DNA of 39,982 nt. Origin: Chlorobiota bacterium. GTDB lineage: Bacteria; Bacteroidota; Bacteroidia; Bacteroidales; Prolixibacteraceae. The notes beneath the pieces were generated by a model, which searched no databases, was not told the DNA's origin, and worked only from the letters and a program-made list of their open reading frames with translations. Made by a program: the position numbers and the translations under genes. This document shows, in pieces, positions 18,687 through 28,340 of this stretch; position 1 is the stretch's first letter; every line of letters starts with the position of its first letter. The stretch lies in contig JAADGO010000133.1 in assembly GCA_013152355.1 (NCBI GenBank), forward strand, positions 1 through 39,982, written 5' to 3'.

Positions 18687-20114
18687 ATGATGGATTTTAG
18701 GTATATCTTACTCATGCGCCACGAATTGCTCCTTGTCCTGGCTGCAATTATTATATTAATAGTAGACCTTTTCACTAGCAACGGGAAGAAAACCAATCTG
18801 ATTAAGTTTTTCTTGTCTCTTTTTGCCCTGGTAATGTTTATAGGTTTTATTCCTGCAAAATCGGGTATAATCTTTGGCGGGGCGTTTCATGGGAATCCTT
18901 TGATAGGCTTTTTTAAGAACATCTTAAACCTGGCCGTGATGATTATCTTCTTGCAATCGGATGGCTATTTGAGGAAGAGTGAAAATTCAGGGAAGGTGGG
19001 TGAATTCTTCGTGTTGATTATTTTAACCCTTGTAGGGATGGACTTTATGATCTCTTCGGGGGATTTCCTGACATTCTTTATCGGCTTGGAAACTGCCTCT
19101 ATCCCGATTGCCGGATTGGTAGCTTTCGACCGGTATAAAAGACGTTCGGCAGAAGCTGGGGTTAAACTTATTTTGCTGTCGGCCATATCCTCCGGGATTT
19201 TACTTTTTGGGCTGTCGTTGATTTATGGTGCAACGGGCTCCATATATTTTTCCGATATTGCCGAACATATCACAGCATCTCCTCTTATCATCCTAGGGTT
19301 TATCTTCTTTGTCAGCGGAATGGGGTTTAAAATTTCCCTGGTACCCTTTCATTTATGGACTGCCGATGTTTATGAAGGGGCGCCTATGAATATTACCGCT
19401 TACCTTTCCGTGGTATCAAAGGGGGCAGCTGCTTTTATTTTTACCATTATCATATATAAAGTTTTTAAGAATATCACCGGTATATGGGAAACAGCCCTCT
19501 ATACACTGTCCATTCTTACTATGACGGTGGGTAACCTGTTCGCTTTGCGCCAGGATAATATTAAACGTTTTTTAGCTTTTTCTTCCATAGCACAGGCAGG
19601 TTTTATCCTTTTGGGGATTATGGGTACAGGCAGTCTGGGAATGGGCTCCCTTGTCTATTTTATTCTGATCTATGTGTTTTCCAACCTGGGGGCTTTCGGA
19701 GTGGCATCGGCTATTTACAACGAATCGGGTGTGGAGTCTATCTCGGGGTACAATGGACTTTATTCCACCAATCCCAGATTAAGCCTTGTGATGATGCTGT
19801 CGTTATTCTCTTTGGCAGGAATTCCTCCGGTTGCCGGGTTCTTTGGGAAATTCTTCTTGTTTACCTCCGCCGGAAGCCAGGGGTATTTTATACTGATCCT
19901 GATTGCTGTACTGAATGCAACCGTTTCTTTGTACTATTACCTGGGTGTGGTCAGGGCCATGTTTATTAATAAAAACGACAACCCTGTCCCCTCTTTCCGT
20001 AGTTCAAATACCATGCGGATAAGTCTTTTGTTGTGCGGCGCAGGTTTACTTTTTATAGGTTTTGTTGGTGGTATCTTTGAATACATCTTGTCCATTAGCC
20101 ATACTCTTTTTTAA
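18687..20114 (+). CDS. nuoN: Complex I subunit N (antiporter-like proton channel)
   Basis: 475 residues; ATG at 18687 or the adjacent 18690. Hydrophobic throughout, with the family segments DFLTFFIGLETASIPIAGL (conserved glutamate), LVPFHLWTADVYEGAPMN and GIPPVAGFFGKFFLF. It is the proximal antiporter-like channel and the last recognised complex I gene. No nuoE, nuoF or nuoG is found anywhere in the window. Confidence 0.95.
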   Translation: MMDFRYILLMRHELLLVLAAIIILIVDLFTSNGKKTNLIKFFLSLFALVMFIGFIPAKSGIIFGGAFHGNPLIGFFKNILNLAVMIIFLQSDGYLRKSENSGKVGEFFVLIILTLVGMDFMISSGDFLTFFIGLETASIPIAGLVAFDRYKRRSAEAGVKLILLSAISSGILLFGLSLIYGATGSIYFSDIAEHITASPLIILGFIFFVSGMGFKISLVPFHLWTADVYEGAPMNITAYLSVVSKGAAAFIFTIIIYKVFKNITGIWETALYTLSILTMTVGNLFALRQDNIKRFLAFSSIAQAGFILLGIMGTGSLGMGSLVYFILIYVFSNLGAFGVASAIYNESGVESISGYNGLYSTNPRLSLVMMLSLFSLAGIPPVAGFFGKFFLFTSAGSQGYFILILIAVLNATVSLYYYLGVVRAMFINKNDNPVPSFRSSNTMRISLLLCGAGLLFIGFVGGIFEYILSISHTLF

Positions 20115-20129
20115 CTAAAAATTCTTCAA

Positions 20130-20465
20130 ATGCCTTTAAACCAGGGAAAACATATCATAAAAGAAATTGATGGAGTCCGTTGTAGCCTTGTAGAAGAAAA
20201 TATTCCTAAAGACAGGGCTGATTTCCTGAGGGAATTATTGACTCATAATGGTTTCGATGTGAAGATTGAGCAAAATAATGGAGATGATTCCTTGTTTACG
20301 ATTGGGGTTACCGACAAACTGTTTAACCCGGTGGTTTACGTCTATGAACTTTGCCTGAAAACGCCGGGTGGCAAAATAGTAACGCCTGCCTATTGGCTGC
20401 AACTGGCACCGGAGGGGATTAATAAAGGTGAGGAGGATTTTTACTGGGGCTTAAAGACTTCCTGA
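20130..20465 (+). CDS. Small conserved-looking protein downstream of nuoN, function unknown
   Basis: 111 residues, no signal peptide or membrane helix, mixed alpha/beta composition. It starts 15 bases after the nuoN stop on the same strand and so is probably the last gene of the nuo transcript. Visible stretches are KEIDGVRCSLVEENIPKDR, a likely helix RADFLRELLTHNGFDVKI, and LFTIGVTDKLFNPVVYVYE. There are two isolated cysteines but no cluster motif. The composition is that of a real soluble protein and the codon use matches its neighbours. I do not recognise the family. A role in assembly of the complex or in electron input is only suggested by position. Confidence 0.75.
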   Translation: MPLNQGKHIIKEIDGVRCSLVEENIPKDRADFLRELLTHNGFDVKIEQNNGDDSLFTIGVTDKLFNPVVYVYELCLKTPGGKIVTPAYWLQLAPEGINKGEEDFYWGLKTS

Positions 20466-20679: not shown

Positions 20680-23382
20680 ATGAAAATTTACAATCAACTG
20701 ATTTTCTCAGTATTGTTCCTGTCCTTAATTACTTGCGGATTGGGCAATGCACAAAACTTAAATGCTTTTAAGCTTGTTGAACCCCCGGATGGCAGTATGC
20801 CCATAATCCGGGATAAGATGTGTTTTAATGGTTATACCAGTTATTGGAATGATACCTACCGGAATTGGTATCGTTATGGAAACCTTTTTAAGATGGTGGT
20901 TGCCGATGTTTCAGCCACCGTTGCGCAAAACAAGGTGGATATAGCCGAAGAACTGGGAATTCCCGGTTTACACATGGAAGAGGGTTTTATAAAACGGTTG
21001 TTCGAAACTGATGCAACGTTATTAAATCATCCGACAATAACAGAGCTTGAAGCTGCCTCTGCCGGGGAAGATGTGCTGGTTTATGCTTTGCCCGGCTCGG
21101 AGGTTGGGAAAAAGCTTCTGGTTTTGGCTGGTGACCTTAATAAATGGAAAAAGGGATTGACAAGCCACCAGTTTAATGCGCTTGATTTCACATCTACAGA
21201 TGCTTTTTGCCTGGAGAATAAGGATAGGAAAATATTTGCCGTTATATCTTCCGATACTAAGGCATTGGAAAAATTTGATAACCTGCAAAGAAAAGCCAAA
21301 GAAATTATTGAGTTGTATGATTTGCGTAAAGGATGGATGGGGGCGGAAACTTTATATATGTCGGTTACAGCTACCTACGGACACCCACTTGATTTGATTG
21401 GAAGAGGGATGGATGAGGGGAATACCTGGTTTGTTTTTAGTGGCTACAACGACTTCCGGGCAAAAGATGAATATATTTCATGGATGGACGAATTGGGAAA
21501 TCCTGCCCTGGTGGATGTGGGCTCATTTACCCCCTCATATATAACCGGCAGCCGGAATTTTTTGTTTGGCTGCGATGATTATGAGGGGCTTCAGGAGCAG
21601 GATATTACCAAAGATGAGTATGTGGAATTTGTTCATAAAAAGAATGGGTTTATTTACCGTCCGGTATACGATACCATTGCTGACCATCATCAGTTTGATG
21701 GATATGTGGCCATTGAAGGTAATAAGGAACAGATTGACGAGGAGGACGTTCCTTTTGTAACCCTGACAGGCAATTTATCCGGTGGTGCTGCTTCGTCAAT
21801 GGTTTTGTTTATTGAAAAGGGGACTAAATTTACCAAGGACGCCTTAGTTAATGCCATCAGGGAAAGGAAATCTGTTGGCGTGCTGCCCGAAGGTAAAATG
21901 GTGGGGGCAGCTATTTACCGCAATACCCTTCAACTGTTGTTGCTCGACCGGGTTTACCTGGAAGAATATTATGGAGACCGGATCAGCCTAAAAGCCGAAA
22001 CCCGGGGGTCGGAGCTTAGGCTTAGCCTGGTAAACCATTATGCCCATCCGGTTTCAGGAAAACTATCGGTAGTGTTGCCCCGGTATCTGGAGTTAGCTGA
22101 TAAAGAGGTAGAGGTTAGCCTGCCTGCCTTTAGTGAAAAGGATTTGAAGTTCAGGTTGAAAATAAATAAAGAAGCCATGGGCAAGACTAATCCTATAGGC
22201 CTTAGTTTTGAATGGGACGGGAAAAGGAAATCAACCGTTACTATGATGAAGATGCCTCCTGCTGTTATGGTTCATCAGTTATTATACGGGCAATCGCCGG
22301 TTGTGGAATACCCGGTGTCGGTGCGGAACTTCTCCCGTCAATCGTCTTTTCCTGTTAAGGTACAGGTTTACAAAATGGGGCAACCCGGAAAAGTTATTCT
22401 TGAAAAAGAACAGATTTGCACACTTGCCCCGGATGCTTATACCGAATTATTCTTTGATCTGGAAATACCAGCCGGCAGTTACCGGGTTACAGCTTCTGCA
22501 TTAGGTACACTGGCTGAGACTCAGCTTGGCGTTGGTAAAGAAGGCGGCAAGCCGATTTTGTCACTTGTCGACCTTAATTCGGATGGGGTTAAGGAATACC
22601 GGATGGAAAATGACCAGGTTAGGGTTACTTTATTAGCCACCGGAGCCCGGGTGATTGAATACATCGTAAAAAGTAAAAACGATAATGTACTATTCAAAAA
22701 ATGGCCTGGGAAACCTATTGATGATAAACGACCGTTCAGAAAACGGCAATTCTATCCTTTTGGTGGTTTTGAAGATTTTCTGGGGCAGCCCAGTATGGAA
22801 ACCCATAAGGTATATGATGTGGAGATAGTTAAGGACAAAGGCTCAAGTGTGAGTGTGAAAATGACAGCCGATTATTTCGGGAACAAACTGGAGAAGATAT
22901 TTACTCTATATGGGAATTCCCCGCTTTTGGAGGTGAAATTCAAGCTCGACTTTAAAAATCCGGAAGCTAACATGATTGGGCCACAGCCTATATTAGAGAT
23001 GGGAAAAGAGCATGGCCCTGAAGATGTGTTTGTGGTGCCGGATATGGAAGGGTTGTTGGAATACCGTATGCGGCCGGAAAATTATTATGGGCACATCTTC
23101 TATTTGGAAGAGGGGTGGAATGCCGGATATGATACCAAAGAAGATGTTTCATTTGTTGGGGCTTTCCCGGTTGGCCAACCCGAATTCTTGCACATGTGGA
23201 TGAACCACCCGAAAAACCCCGGATCACATTATTATTATATGGAGTTTCAGCCCTGGGTACATATTGTCCAAAAAAATAATATGTATTTTTCTTACTATAT
23301 GTGGGCTACCGAAGGAAGTTGGAAAAAAGGCGTTAAAGCTCTTCGGGAGAGGAACCTGGTGATGACAAGAAAGAGCCAATAA
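20680..23382 (+). CDS. Large secreted protein with sugar-mutarotase-like C-terminal part
   Basis: 900 residues. The N-terminus is a signal peptide (QLIFSVLFLSLITCGLGNAQ), probably cut after NAQ; the cysteine is not in a convincing lipobox. Residues about 30-330 form a domain I cannot name, with many Trp/Tyr residues (GYTSYWNDTYRNWYRYGN). About 350-620 look like beta-sandwich repeats. DLNSDGVKEY (about 631-640) resembles a calcium-binding loop. The rest (about 640-900) resembles the galactose-mutarotase-like beta-sandwich of carbohydrate enzymes (VRVTLLATGARVIEYIV, YPFGGFEDFLGQP). It is the first of three secreted genes ending with a YdjC-type deacetylase, which suggests glycan degradation. 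No catalytic residues could be assigned. Confidence 0.6.
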   Translation: MKIYNQLIFSVLFLSLITCGLGNAQNLNAFKLVEPPDGSMPIIRDKMCFNGYTSYWNDTYRNWYRYGNLFKMVVADVSATVAQNKVDIAEELGIPGLHMEEGFIKRLFETDATLLNHPTITELEAASAGEDVLVYALPGSEVGKKLLVLAGDLNKWKKGLTSHQFNALDFTSTDAFCLENKDRKIFAVISSDTKALEKFDNLQRKAKEIIELYDLRKGWMGAETLYMSVTATYGHPLDLIGRGMDEGNTWFVFSGYNDFRAKDEYISWMDELGNPALVDVGSFTPSYITGSRNFLFGCDDYEGLQEQDITKDEYVEFVHKKNGFIYRPVYDTIADHHQFDGYVAIEGNKEQIDEEDVPFVTLTGNLSGGAASSMVLFIEKGTKFTKDALVNAIRERKSVGVLPEGKMVGAAIYRNTLQLLLLDRVYLEEYYGDRISLKAETRGSELRLSLVNHYAHPVSGKLSVVLPRYLELADKEVEVSLPAFSEKDLKFRLKINKEAMGKTNPIGLSFEWDGKRKSTVTMMKMPPAVMVHQLLYGQSPVVEYPVSVRNFSRQSSFPVKVQVYKMGQPGKVILEKEQICTLAPDAYTELFFDLEIPAGSYRVTASALGTLAETQLGVGKEGGKPILSLVDLNSDGVKEYRMENDQVRVTLLATGARVIEYIVKSKNDNVLFKKWPGKPIDDKRPFRKRQFYPFGGFEDFLGQPSMETHKVYDVEIVKDKGSSVSVKMTADYFGNKLEKIFTLYGNSPLLEVKFKLDFKNPEANMIGPQPILEMGKEHGPEDVFVVPDMEGLLEYRMRPENYYGHIFYLEEGWNAGYDTKEDVSFVGAFPVGQPEFLHMWMNHPKNPGSHYYYMEFQPWVHIVQKNNMYFSYYMWATEGSWKKGVKALRERNLVMTRKSQ

Positions 23383-23466
23383 AACCCATCACCTGGAGTT
23401 TCTTTTAAAGAATGGCGGCATGAGTCGTATTAAAGATTTAATCAACTAATTATAACATATATACGA

Positions 23467-25275
23467 ATGAAACAAAAATTATCCTTCCTACCCCTGCTTT
23501 TTGCTTTGATTATCTTAGGGAGTAAAATACAGGCAAAAGAAACACTGATTGTCAAGCATGTCGAGTTGGGTTACCCTTGCCCGGCTATCCCTTTTTATCA
23601 TTTTTCGGCCGATTTGGAATTGCCTGAACCTTCGATTATTGAAGTGCAGGCTGCGGTAAATGGAAAAATTCTTCGGGCTACCGACCTGCACCGGGCTAAA
23701 GATGCGATGGAACTAAATCATCCGCCTTTGTCGCATCGCCCACCTTCGGGATATGGTTTGTCGCAAGATGGTACGTTGTATAAAACCCCGCATCTGGTTG
23801 GCTGGGTAAGGTGGGAGCCCGGTAAAAGTTATACAATTAAATTATCAGTACGTATAAAGAAGAGTGTAAAGGGCCTGGCAGACGATACCTGGCTGTCGAG
23901 TACAGTAACGGTTAAAGCCCCTGAGGGAGTAGCTGTATTCGACCCGGCCTGGAAAAATTATAAAGCGGTAGTTGTAAGTGAAACTGCCGGAATCGGCCGG
24001 AAGTCAGAAGCCGTTGAGGTGTTATTGCCCTTTTATCCTGATGAGGCTTTCGATTTAAAGCGGGAAATCCGTGTTGTAGCGGTCGATCCGCAAACACATG
24101 CCTTATCGGGTGTGCCATGCCAGGTTTATGACTTGGAAAAATTTATGTTGGAAGACGACATGGCACCGGATGAGAACGGCAAGCCCACCCGTGAAGTGCC
24201 TTTGTGGTATCCCACGATAAGTGCAAGGGTGGCTTTTATAGCCGATGTGCCGGCAAATTCCAGCAAGGTTTACCTGGTATACTACAACAACGATAAAGCT
24301 ATGTCTAAGGTTTACAGCAGCCAACTGAAGGTACAGGGTGAAATGCCAGGTATAAGTGTGGAAAATGGAGTGCTTTCAATTGTGCTTCATCCCAATTCGG
24401 GGCATGTAGACCAGCTGACCCTGGACGAAAAACCGGAATTCCCTCTATTTCACCGGATGGAGACCAATGGAGCTATTCACTGGAACCCGGGTATTTATTC
24501 GCCGCCACGCCCGTGGACACATACGGCCGATTGGAAACCTCCTCAACATATAAACCTTATTTCTGGCCCGGTTACTGCCGTTGTCGAATTGTGGGGTAAC
24601 TTGCGAGATATTCCGGAGGTAGATGCCTCGGTGCGGTACGAATTTTTCCCCAATGTCCCCTATTTTTTTAGTTCCACCAGTATGCGGATTAATAAGTCCA
24701 TTAATTGTATTGCTTTGCGAAATGGGGAGATTGTGTTTAAACGTGAGCTGATGACGCATGCTGCCTGGTACGATGTGATTCGCGATAGGGTGATAACTTA
24801 TAATGTAGCTGATATGCCCGACCTCACCGACCTGAAAATGGAGGCTGATGTGCCGTGGATAACCTTTTATAATAGTGAGGAAGGTATTGGTTTTGCCGGT
24901 ATTCAGCTGGATTACACTAATGCCGGGCTGGAATCGAGGGAGCGGTTATTGAATCCGTATATGTATATTACCGGAGGCCCATGGATTTACTGGGCACGTG
25001 CTTTATCGCTTCCTTTCCTGTCGTCTAATATGCAACAAATGGTGCCGGCAATGAAAGGGAATTTCTTCACAGAAAAATGGGCGTACCTGGTTTATAAAAT
25101 TGAAGATGCTGAGAACCCGTATCAGCCGGTTTTGGAATGGAGAAAACGTCTGACTAGCCCTTTAAGGGTGCACCTGGTGGAAGAAGTAGATGACCGTGTT
25201 TCCAAATCGGTACAGGAAATATTTATCGATGAAGGACGAAGTGGCTGGGAAGAGCGTGAAACCGGAAAACATTAA
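23467..25275 (+). CDS. Secreted beta-rich protein, possible polysaccharide-lyase-like
   Basis: 602 residues with a signal peptide (LSFLPLLFALIILGSKIQA, cut before KE). An N-terminal beta domain (about 27-150) is followed by VVVSETAGIGRKSEAVEVLLPF and ARVAFIADVPANSSKVYLVYY. These passages recall the opening beta-sandwich of exo-rhamnogalacturonan-lyase-like proteins. A large second domain contains many Trp/Tyr/His residues (HWNPGIYSPPRPWTHTADW, LMTHAAWYDVIRDR, GGPWIYWARA) typical of sugar-binding clefts. It is 84 bases after the 900-residue gene and 40 before the deacetylase start, so probably in one transcript. The lyase reading is a resemblance, not an assignment. Confidence 0.55.
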   Translation: MKQKLSFLPLLFALIILGSKIQAKETLIVKHVELGYPCPAIPFYHFSADLELPEPSIIEVQAAVNGKILRATDLHRAKDAMELNHPPLSHRPPSGYGLSQDGTLYKTPHLVGWVRWEPGKSYTIKLSVRIKKSVKGLADDTWLSSTVTVKAPEGVAVFDPAWKNYKAVVVSETAGIGRKSEAVEVLLPFYPDEAFDLKREIRVVAVDPQTHALSGVPCQVYDLEKFMLEDDMAPDENGKPTREVPLWYPTISARVAFIADVPANSSKVYLVYYNNDKAMSKVYSSQLKVQGEMPGISVENGVLSIVLHPNSGHVDQLTLDEKPEFPLFHRMETNGAIHWNPGIYSPPRPWTHTADWKPPQHINLISGPVTAVVELWGNLRDIPEVDASVRYEFFPNVPYFFSSTSMRINKSINCIALRNGEIVFKRELMTHAAWYDVIRDRVITYNVADMPDLTDLKMEADVPWITFYNSEEGIGFAGIQLDYTNAGLESRERLLNPYMYITGGPWIYWARALSLPFLSSNMQQMVPAMKGNFFTEKWAYLVYKIEDAENPYQPVLEWRKRLTSPLRVHLVEEVDDRVSKSVQEIFIDEGRSGWEERETGKH

Positions 25276-25315
25276 TTAATATTGAAAGAGATTGACTAAT
25301 TTAGAATCAAATAAT

Positions 25316-26260
25316 ATGAAATTAAGGAATATATTATTTATAATAATGGCATTAACTATTTCAACAACGTTGTTTGGCCAGGGAAAATTACTTTCCGAAA
25401 GGTTGGGCTATAAACCAACGGATAAGCTTTTAATTGTTAATTGTGATGATGTGGGTATGTGCCATGCTGCAAACCTGGCAGCAATCCAGGGGTTGGAGGA
25501 AGGGCTAATCACTTCAGGCACGATTATGGTGCCATGCCCCTGGTTTCCGGAGATTGCCGATTATGCTGCAAAGAATAAGGGCGTGGACCTGGGGGTACAC
25601 CTGACGCATACATCGGAATGGAAGTATTACCGTTGGCAACCTTTATCAGATATTTGTTTGGTGAAAGGGCTTGCAGATAAAATGGGATTTATGTGGCGCG
25701 AGGTAAGTGAGGTTTACGAACATGCAACCCCGGAGGAGGCCCTGATTGAAGGGCGTGCGCAAATCAGGAAAGCCCTGGATGCAGGTGTCCCCGTTACACA
25801 TATTGATTCGCACATGGGTACACTGCAATATAAACAGGAGTACATGCAGGTATATTTGCAATTGGCAGTTGAATTTAACCTCCCGGTACGTATGGCGTCA
25901 CAGTCTACTTTGGAAAGGATGGGGGCTCCCGGCCTTCGTGAAACATTTGCCGGGGAAGGGATTGTTTTCCCTGATTATTTTGTTTACGATGAATTGGAGT
26001 CGTATGATAAAAATGATGTAAAGGGTTTTTGGGAAGGTGTTGTCCGGGGCTTAAAACCTGGTGTTACCGAGGTTTTTATACATGCATCGACCCCGGGCGA
26101 TGAGATAAAATCTATAACCAATAGCTGGCAGACACGGATTCAGGAGTATGAGCTTTTTGTAACAGACTCCGGATTTAAGGCACTCCTTGAAAAAGAAGGG
26201 GTTAAACTAATTGGTTACCGCCCATTGCTGGAACTACAACGGTCGATCAAAAACAAATAA
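25316..26260 (+). CDS. Exported YdjC/ChbG-family carbohydrate deacetylase
   Basis: 314 residues from ATG 25316; the in-frame TTG 24 bases upstream is less likely because it would put a polar tail before the signal peptide. Residues 1-22 are a signal peptide (IIMALTISTTLFGQ). Family motifs are VNCDDVGMCHAAN with Asp44, Asp45 and His50, GVHLTHTSEW with His95, and THIDSHMGT with His162 and His166. These residues bind a divalent metal and catalyse removal of acetyl groups from sugars such as chitooligosaccharides. ChbG itself is cytoplasmic, whereas this one is exported with two other secreted proteins. The substrate is unknown. Confidence 0.85.
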   Translation: MKLRNILFIIMALTISTTLFGQGKLLSERLGYKPTDKLLIVNCDDVGMCHAANLAAIQGLEEGLITSGTIMVPCPWFPEIADYAAKNKGVDLGVHLTHTSEWKYYRWQPLSDICLVKGLADKMGFMWREVSEVYEHATPEEALIEGRAQIRKALDAGVPVTHIDSHMGTLQYKQEYMQVYLQLAVEFNLPVRMASQSTLERMGAPGLRETFAGEGIVFPDYFVYDELESYDKNDVKGFWEGVVRGLKPGVTEVFIHASTPGDEIKSITNSWQTRIQEYELFVTDSGFKALLEKEGVKLIGYRPLLELQRSIKNK

Positions 26261-26284: not shown

Positions 26285-26314
26285 ATTACCCCGGGATACC
26301 CGGGGTAATCTTTT
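26285..26314. terminator. Hairpin terminator between the convergent secreted cluster and tkt
   Basis: ATTACCCCGGG (26285-26295) pairs perfectly with CCCGGGGTAAT (26299-26309) over a three-base loop, followed on the plus strand by CTTTTATATTATTTTT. The T-rich tail overlaps the last codons of tkt. It should stop transcription of the secreted cluster. On the minus strand the tail is weaker. Confidence 0.8.
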
Positions 26315-28340
26315 ATATTATTTTTCTCACCTGCCTGTAAACATTCTCACCGTTAAAACCAAGTTTTTCATCCAGTACTTTATAAGGTGCTGAATAACCA
26401 AATGATTCAAGTCCCCATGTTTTACCATTTTCGCCAACCAACCCTTCCAGTGTTACGGGCAATCCTGCCGTCAGTCCAAATCTTTTTATCCCTGGCGGAA
26501 GTATGCTTTCCTGGTATTCTTTTGGTTGCGAACGGAATAAGCCTTCGGAAGGTACGGATACAATACGTATTTTAATTGCATCTTTTTCTTTCAGCAATTT
26601 TGCTCCTTCAACCAGTGTAGAAACTTCGGAGCCGCTGGCTAATAAAATTACATCAGGGGTGCCTTCGCAGTCTTCTACAATATAAGCACCTTTTTCTGAC
26701 TGCAATGCTTCACTATAACGGTTTCCTTTTGCAGGCAAGCTTGTAATATTCTGACGCGACAAAATCAAGGCACTTGGTGTTGCTGTGTTCTCAAGAGCCA
26801 GTTTCCATGCAATGGTTGTTTCATCGGCATCGGCAGGGCGTAGTACCAGCATGCTGTTCCTGCCTTTATGGTTTTTCAGTTTCTCCATCAGCCTGAGTTG
26901 GGCTTCCTGCTCTACAGGCTGGTGGGTTGGGCCGTCTTCGCCTACACGGAAAGCATCGTGAGTCCATACATATTTTACCGGTATCTCCATTAGAGCTGCC
27001 AATCGTAAAGCCGGTTTCATGTAGTCTGAGAATACGAAGAAAGTTCCGCAAACCGGGATAATGCCTCCATGCAATGCCATTCCGTTTGCCACGGCAGCCA
27101 TGGTTAGTTCGCTAACTCCGGCCTGTAAGAAAGAACCGCTGAAATCGCCTTTTTTAAAGGCAGTGGTTTTTTTTAGGAATCCGTCTGTTTTATCCGAATT
27201 TGATAAATCGGCTGATGAAACAACCATGTTTTCAACCTTGCTGGCAAAAGCTGCTAATACAGTGCTTGATGCCCCACGTGTGGCTGAATTGGCTTTTTGT
27301 TCAATCTCCGAGAAATTAAACTCAGGTGCCTTTTTGTCGAGGAACCTATTAAGTTTTGCAGCTAATCCGGGGTTGGCGGCTTCCCATTCGGCTTGCTTTG
27401 CTTTTTTTGCGGCAGCAGCTTCAATTAGTTCTTCTCTGCGTTTTGCGTACGCTTCTTTTACATCGTCAAATATTACAAATGGGTTTTCAGGGTCGCCGCC
27501 TAAGTTTGTAATCGATTTTACGAACGATGCGCCTGCATTGGTCAGCGGCATACCATGCGTGGAGCATTGCCTTTCGAAGCTGTCTCCATTCTCAGTAATT
27601 GCGCCTTTCCCCATTATTGTTTTGCCAATTATCAGGGTTGGCCTTTCCGATTCGTTATTTGCTTCTTTTAATGCAGCCCTGATTGCTTCGGCATCGTTGC
27701 CATTAATTGTAATGACTTTCCATCCCCATGCTTCGTATTTTTTTGCAGTATCTTCTGCTGTAACTTCGTCTGTTGAGGTAGAAAGCTGGATGTCGTTCGA
27801 GTCGTAAAATAAAATCAGGTTGCTCAGTCCCAGGAATCCTGCTATCCGCCCTGCCCCTTGGGAAATTTCTTCCTGGACACCCCCGTCTGATATGAAGGCG
27901 TAAGTTTTGTGCGCCATCCATTCTCCAAAACGGCTAACCAGGAACCTTTCTGCGATTGCAGCTCCAACAGCCATTGTATGCCCCTGCCCAAGTGGGCCTG
28001 AAGTATTTTCCACTCCACGTAAAACATCTAGTTCAGGATGCCCGGGGGTAACACTGCCCCATTGGCGGAAATTTTCCAGGTCGGACATAGTATAGTAGCC
28101 GGCTAATGCCAATACGGAATAAAGCATTGGAGACATGTGCCCGGGGTCCAGGAAAAACCTGTCGCGGTTGGGCCATCCCATATCGGAAGGGTCGTAATTT
28201 AAGAATTCAGAGTAAAGTATATTAATAAAGTCGGCACCTCCCATTGCACCCCCCGGATGCCCTGATTTTGCTTTTTCTACCATTGCTGCAGCCAGGATAC
28301 GAATATTATTGGCTGCCTTTTCTACTACTGCTGTGTTCAT
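26313..28340 (-). CDS. tkt: Transketolase
   Basis: 675 residues, usual length for the bacterial enzyme. It moves two-carbon units between sugar phosphates in the pentose phosphate pathway, using thiamine diphosphate. SGHPGGAMGGADF (26-38) and GPLGQGHTMAVGAAIAERF are in the N-terminal domain. The cofactor motif is SDGGVQEEISQGAGR (151-165) instead of GDG at the first position, a variant I associate with this branch. EDGPTHQPVEQ in the second half marks the pyrimidine-binding domain. The gene is single, transcribed from a 400-base divergent gap. Confidence 0.95.
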   Translation of the reverse strand: MNTAVVEKAANNIRILAAAMVEKAKSGHPGGAMGGADFINILYSEFLNYDPSDMGWPNRDRFFLDPGHMSPMLYSVLALAGYYTMSDLENFRQWGSVTPGHPELDVLRGVENTSGPLGQGHTMAVGAAIAERFLVSRFGEWMAHKTYAFISDGGVQEEISQGAGRIAGFLGLSNLILFYDSNDIQLSTSTDEVTAEDTAKKYEAWGWKVITINGNDAEAIRAALKEANNESERPTLIIGKTIMGKGAITENGDSFERQCSTHGMPLTNAGASFVKSITNLGGDPENPFVIFDDVKEAYAKRREELIEAAAAKKAKQAEWEAANPGLAAKLNRFLDKKAPEFNFSEIEQKANSATRGASSTVLAAFASKVENMVVSSADLSNSDKTDGFLKKTTAFKKGDFSGSFLQAGVSELTMAAVANGMALHGGIIPVCGTFFVFSDYMKPALRLAALMEIPVKYVWTHDAFRVGEDGPTHQPVEQEAQLRLMEKLKNHKGRNSMLVLRPADADETTIAWKLALENTATPSALILSRQNITSLPAKGNRYSEALQSEKGAYIVEDCEGTPDVILLASGSEVSTLVEGAKLLKEKDAIKIRIVSVPSEGLFRSQPKEYQESILPPGIKRFGLTAGLPVTLEGLVGENGKTWGLESFGYSAPYKVLDEKLGFNGENVYRQVRKII

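Follow-up and report, generated by a model that had tools for sequence, protein, structure and literature searches.

Do three adjacent genes for exported proteins, the last of them a YdjC-type deacetylase, make up one glycan-processing system? The question is raised by a 39,982-nucleotide stretch of a Prolixibacteraceae genome (contig JAADGO010000133.1 of assembly GCA_013152355.1), referred to here as the window. Its open reading frame (ORF) listing holds three co-directional genes on the plus strand, separated by short gaps: P1 (20680..23382; secreted protein, 900 amino acids (aa)), P2 (23467..25275; secreted protein, 602 aa) and P3 (25316..26260; exported YdjC-family deacetylase-like protein, 314 aa from its ATG). 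An earlier interpretation of the letters alone, hereafter the sequence-only reading, described three secreted proteins closed by one strong terminator. The three ORFs are confirmed, and by inspection all of their N-termini are signal-peptide-like. The set conserved in other genomes is smaller. We consider it moderately probable that P1 and P2 are a conserved, probably co-transcribed, secreted glycan-processing pair, in which P2 is the probable catalyst and P1 its partner.

P1 and P2 as the conserved unit

Relatives of P2 were found at 52 loci, with 57-76% identity, in one scan of GTDB genome contigs (84,980 species by the collection's description) queried with P2 patterns (A1). The hosts include Maribellus, Draconibacterium, Mariniphaga, Cyclobacteriaceae, Aureibaculum, Flaviramulus, Urechidicola, Tannerella metagenome-assembled genomes (MAGs), Phocaeicola abscessus, Saprospiraceae and others, plus one MAG labelled Neomarinimicrobiota; in habitat they presumably span marine genera in culture as well as Tannerella MAGs of the termite-gut type. 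By tblastn, a P1 homolog is present at 47 of the 52 loci, whereas P3 is present at none. Therefore, the conserved unit is the P1-P2 pair and no trio. Among the five loci without P1, two start inside P2 (L015 and L061) and one has 472 bp upstream (L018); L046 and L048, with ~8 kb of upstream DNA, truly lack it. ORF calls place P1 immediately upstream of P2 at 41 loci, with a median gap of 34 bp (range -4 to 385), and P1 lies downstream of P2 at L057. At L058, P1 was masked by an antisense frame in the greedy ORF calls and was recovered by tblastn. In addition, the identities of P1 and P2 covary (Mantel rho 0.44 over 38 members, with 0 of 999 permutations as high). Six loci (L017, L019, L021, L032, L037 and L060) carry tandem P1-type genes before P2, which suggests P1 paralogs with split roles.

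Searches of smaller genome sets returned few members. A single-sequence P1 search matched its own genome only (1/247 phylum genomes), and the P1 profile, built from alignment A3 (homologs of at least 860 aa, 45/52 ORFs), matched 2/247 order genomes, the second match being a P1 of 31% identity. With its own genome counted, P2 was found in 2/247 phylum and 3/295 order genomes; its alignment, A4, holds homologs of at least 590 aa (46/52). No match to P1 was found in the viral contigs searched. The divergent P1 homolog (L075, 276-2903) lies on a 4.1-kb contig without P2, adjoined by a HAD-like ORF on the opposite strand, and P1-like proteins without P2 may thus occur. A secreted P2-like protein of 396 aa (P0005; L004, 1018-2205), 31% identical to P2 and without the N-terminal immunoglobulin (Ig)-like domain, follows a DHDPS-like gene, and no P1 was found in the genome that carries it.

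Elsewhere the pair belongs to loci of the polysaccharide utilization locus (PUL) type, since a SusC-SusD pair lies upstream at part of the loci and the other neighbours are often glycan-active. The SusC-SusD pair is directly upstream on the same strand at 12 of the 28 loci that hold at least 4.6 kb of upstream DNA, SusC and SusD having been identified on representatives; among these 12, the SusD-like gene comes from another cluster in two, and P1 is missing in L048. The absence of SusC/SusD pointed out by the sequence-only reading is true of the window, where no ORF of SusC size (~1000 aa) is listed, and untrue of the conserved pair.

Other neighbours were collected in a scan (A7) of genes on the same strand, no more than three genes away from the block and separated by gaps of at most 400 bp; SusC/SusD clusters 2 and 3 were excluded, as were genes below 150 or above 1000 aa and sequences with X. 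The resulting 83 proteins include DUF4838 (6), CBM9_1 (6), GH67N (4) and rhamnosidase (3) families. The neighbours seen across the loci as a whole also comprise glycan-type proteins of glycoside hydrolase (GH) and related kinds, namely GH109-like, alpha-L-rhamnosidase, GH31, GH127, GH5, GH9, GH92, GH95-like and GH2. DUF4962 with heparinase II/III and URO-D also occur, as do universal stress proteins, transketolase, PQQ dehydrogenase and hemN, which are not of glycan type. The glycan setting proposed for the window is thus borne out by the relatives of P1 and P2, which sit among carbohydrate genes; because these neighbours vary, the context indicates glycan use but no single substrate. At L018, L021 and L045 a URO-D-like gene (cluster 10) follows P2, and L018 and L045 share creatininase-like, RidA-like and short-chain dehydrogenase genes (named partly by inspection), which are odd beside a glycan pair. 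Taken together, P1-P2 is a tightly linked pair, patchy across Bacteroidota and often found in PUL-type loci.

Predicted folds and conserved residues

Neither P1 nor P2 has a Pfam or NCBIfam match or a PDB sequence match of note, in agreement with the earlier statement that they lack a clear family. Across the homologs, NCBIfam gave four single-member matches among 46 P1 members (the best to a HAD-family model, E 5.8e-4) and 0 families among 47 P2 members; scattered Pfam matches of A3 members (among them the Ig-type FixG_C and NPCBM_assoc as well as singletons) were left unused. The fold classes given here are predictions, and for P1 as for P2 most of the fold matches are carbohydrate-active proteins.

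The predicted model of P1 (predicted local distance difference test (pLDDT) 86.5, predicted template-modelling score (pTM) 0.87) comprises an alpha/beta domain (~43-430), two Ig-like domains (~435-625) and a C-terminal galactose-mutarotase-like beta-supersandwich (~635-895), the last of which accounts for the mutarotase-like part noticed earlier. This domain resembles GalM (4bze; Z 20.5, root-mean-square deviation (rmsd) 2.9 over 232 residues) and BDI_1685 (5cd6; Z 20.4, rmsd 3.5 over 259 residues). Unlike them, P1 is secreted and multi-domain, with 13-14% identity in the aligned region, and the Pfam mutarotase family is not among the families listed for P1 members. No relationship between the mutarotase-like domain of P1 and P2 was found by profile comparison (probability 1%). 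Nearly all deeply conserved charged residues of P1 sit in the mutarotase-like domain. Residues 675-707 have pLDDT <50 although many of these positions are invariant; a probable active-site loop therefore appears to be poorly modelled.

The best Foldseek match of P1 by E (1.1e-8) is the two-domain PHP protein BVU_3505 (3e38). Residues 350-540 of P1 resemble the tail of its PHP domain together with the Ig domain (probability 94%, pairwise E 1.7e-7), but the TM-scores are 0.18/0.44 with an rmsd of 18, the N-terminal metal-binding part is unaligned and the metal ligands are missing. Cropped alone, the N-terminal domain matches the PHP profile with a probability of 12%. Within residues 43-427 no His, Asp or Glu is conserved at depth and the PHP metal-binding set is absent. 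The P1 N-terminus is therefore a candidate, and likely, degenerate PHP domain; it has kept no histidine or acidic residue at depth and gives the impression of a module for binding or scaffolding.

In the predicted model of P2 (pLDDT 81.6, pTM 0.83), an Ig-like domain (~28-150) precedes a beta-sandwich and beta-supersandwich (~160-575), which resembles the beta domains of lyases and hydrolases, in keeping with the lyase-like part suggested earlier. Its top fold matches tie: the beta region of GH38 7ufs (Z 17.7, rmsd 3.8 over 230 residues) and the polysaccharide lyase family 26 (PL26) exo-rhamnogalacturonan lyase 5xqg, of which residues 23-510 match P2 160-572 (Z 17.7, rmsd 4.5, 340 aligned). 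These are followed by GH38 2wyi (Z 17.2, rmsd 4.2 over 323 residues), the GH174 fucanase 8jd7 (Z 16.3, rmsd 3.9 over 254 residues) and mutarotases at Z near 15. The identity to PL26 is 9-10%, the rest of PL26 is absent from P2, and the P2 profile (A4) gave no match of any kind in the PDB at E up to 10. The residues H338, D355, R390, Y391, R418, N419, E421, H431, D461, W464, Y508 and R511 of P2 are invariant or nearly so, even in a 31%-identical relative, and are located in the beta-supersandwich.

A more distant likeness is to DUF4861 (PF16153), whose members are secreted and begin with a beta-sandwich pattern shared with P2. The profile comparison is weak (probability 72-76%, pairwise E ~2e-5 to 4e-5 over 81-82 columns), while local-mode comparisons of unrelated parts gave probabilities of 0.3-2.3%. 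At E up to 1, DUF4861 is touched by three of the 47 P2 members (best 0.025), none significantly, and P2 itself has no match at that threshold and does not reach the gathering cut-off. In addition, the charged residues of the P2 supersandwich do not align convincingly with DUF4861. A DUF4861 gene in the genome of the window (L099 and L109; C215:14563-15742) matches as two adjacent pieces and is apparently split, broken or mis-assembled.

The exported deacetylase and the transcription unit

P3 is a clear member of the YdjC/ChbG deacetylase family (PF04794; E 1.3e-49, 169.9 bits against a curated cut-off of 29.7), with the PDB relatives 8jqe, 2e67, 2i5i and 7vi8. It keeps five ChbG active-site positions, D44, D45, H95 and H166, placed by alignment, and H256, placed by its FIHAS motif, aligned to IH of 8jqe. 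In kpChbG (7vi8), the Zn ligands and general base/acid are D10, D11, H61, H125 and H206 (PMC9402603). With the Zn and catalytic positions present, P3 is, as far as its sequence tells, a plausible exported deacetylase, although it scores below the ChbG equivalog cut-off (NF002559; 70.3 bits against 227) and, unlike ChbG, is exported. The sequence-only reading had called an exported ChbG-like enzyme unusual. Its relatives argue otherwise: at E up to 1e-30, 12 matches of 31-40% identity were found in ten other genomes (247 searched), and since inspection shows a signal-like N-terminus in all 12 ORFs, export is usual in this YdjC branch. In one of the 12, a very large secreted protein (L080; 1438-aa ORF), a YdjC domain stands at the C-terminus, an unusual fusion.

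The absence of P3 from the P1-P2 loci is informative because in 45 of the 52 the sequence continues for 1.2 kb or more beyond P2. At L027, P1-P2 is followed by a transketolase gene whose product is 73% identical to that of the window, with no YdjC gene between. Conversely, neither P1 nor P2 was found near any of the 12 P3 matches (L062-L073, nine of them with wider flanks as L076-L084). The lack of a conserved linkage to the deacetylase, which the sequence-only reading had listed among its refuting outcomes, thus speaks against the trio and leaves the P1-P2 pair unaffected, and P3 was rejected as its conserved partner. P3 is a local neighbour behind the pair in its own lineage, separate from the conserved set. 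A horizontal origin was also considered, for which the G+C content is uninformative (0.45 in P3 against 0.43 in P1, 0.47 in P2 and 0.46 in transketolase).

Within the window, the gap between P1 and P2 is 84 bp, and that between P2 and P3 is 40 bp to the ATG at 25316 or 16 bp to an in-frame TTG, from which the ORF spans 25292-26260 (322 aa). As the signal-like segment starts at 25316, the ATG is the likely start. The terminator of the sequence-only reading corresponds to a strong, terminator-like palindromic hairpin (26285..26309), which separates P3 from the convergent transketolase gene and has a stem of 11 pairs, a loop of 3 nt and a T-rich tail. Folded with its flanks it reaches -19.2 kcal/mol against a shuffle mean of -12.0 (z -3.0; 1/200 shuffles as good), and it alone stands out in a scan whose 10 terminator-like sites, against 8.2 expected, are at about the chance rate. 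Since it is sited between convergent genes, it may serve P3 and transketolase alike. A single transcription unit would be compatible with these gaps, with the three signal-like N-termini and with the hairpin. The transketolase gene (26313..28340, minus strand; ORF listing) is a convergent flank outside the system. On the other side, a 111-aa ORF (20130-20465) lies between an NADH-dehydrogenase-type gene (named by inspection; ends at 20114) and P1.

What the pair may do

We propose that P2 would be an enzyme, lyase or hydrolase, acting through its beta-supersandwich, and that P1 would work alongside it, its N-terminal domain serving in binding or as a scaffold. Of the two, P2 is more likely to be the catalyst. 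P1 may have a binding or assisting role, although catalysis by its own mutarotase-like domain could also occur. Several points weigh against this proposal. The beta-supersandwich is often accessory and also occurs in non-enzymes, of which YidC (for P2) and complement C3 (for P1) are among the fold matches. No catalytic residue was transferred from any characterised relative. The window has no SusC, no glycoside hydrolase lies beside the pair, and the flanks vary so widely among loci that no single substrate follows. Moreover, the 52 loci were selected by P2 patterns, and the rates given for P1 and P3 are conditional on P2. A bolder version is speculative and, to us, rather improbable: P2 would found a new catalytic beta-supersandwich family without an alpha/alpha or TIM-barrel domain, obligately paired with P1, whose metal-less PHP-like domain would be a glycan-binding module.

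Other explanations place the chemistry differently. P2 might be a polysaccharide lyase on uronic-acid/rhamnose glycans with a PL26-like mechanism and P1 as partner. The modelled fold puts PL26 chains among the top matches over 340-353 residues, His, Tyr, Arg and Asn residues are conserved, and rhamnosidase, DUF4838/GH67N-type and DUF4962/heparinase-II/III-type genes are neighbours at some loci. However, the beta domains of GH38 score just as highly (Z within 1), the aligned part stops near residue 520 of ~900 in PL26, with the rest unmatched in P2, and many neighbours hydrolyse other glycans (GH92, GH31, GH127 and GH9). We regard this assignment as possible but doubtful. Alternatively, P1 and P2 may both be non-catalytic, resembling the surface or periplasmic glycan-binding proteins (SGBPs) of SusCD systems. 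Such a role would explain why substrates vary and why Ig-like and degenerate domains are present, and it suits the multiple Ig domains across the two proteins, the P1 N-terminal domain without conserved metal ligands and the location just after SusD at 12 of 28 loci. The usual surface lipoproteins carry a lipobox, but no lipobox-like motif was found in 45 P1 and 46 P2 homologs, and P2 is highly conserved in sequence, with invariant charged residues clustering in the supersandwich domains. We regard a purely binding role as an outside possibility of similar standing.

A single system of P1, P2 and the exported YdjC protein for an acetylated polymer might be read from the co-directional genes, the 40-bp gap, the shared hairpin and the complete set of five ChbG positions. 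Against it stand the loci themselves, where P3 is lacking in 52 of 52 despite the sequence available after P2, the L027 arrangement, and the P3 relatives that have neither P1 nor P2 nearby. As a conserved system the trio is unlikely, and we give it little credence. In its own organism, P3 may act with the pair; its target for deacetylation would then be an amino sugar in the pair's product.

Literature searches on YdjC, PL26, DUF4861 and PHP/PUL/mutarotase topics returned no report on the P1-P2 pair, a statement limited to those searches. The tempting view of the exported deacetylase as defining the system is corrected by our analysis. What takes its place is a pair conserved across many Bacteroidota, whose members in the window match no Pfam or NCBIfam model, and which is thus a concrete target for the discovery of carbohydrate-active enzymes. 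Since cultured Maribellus and Draconibacterium carry SusCD-linked members, tests of its substrate are possible.

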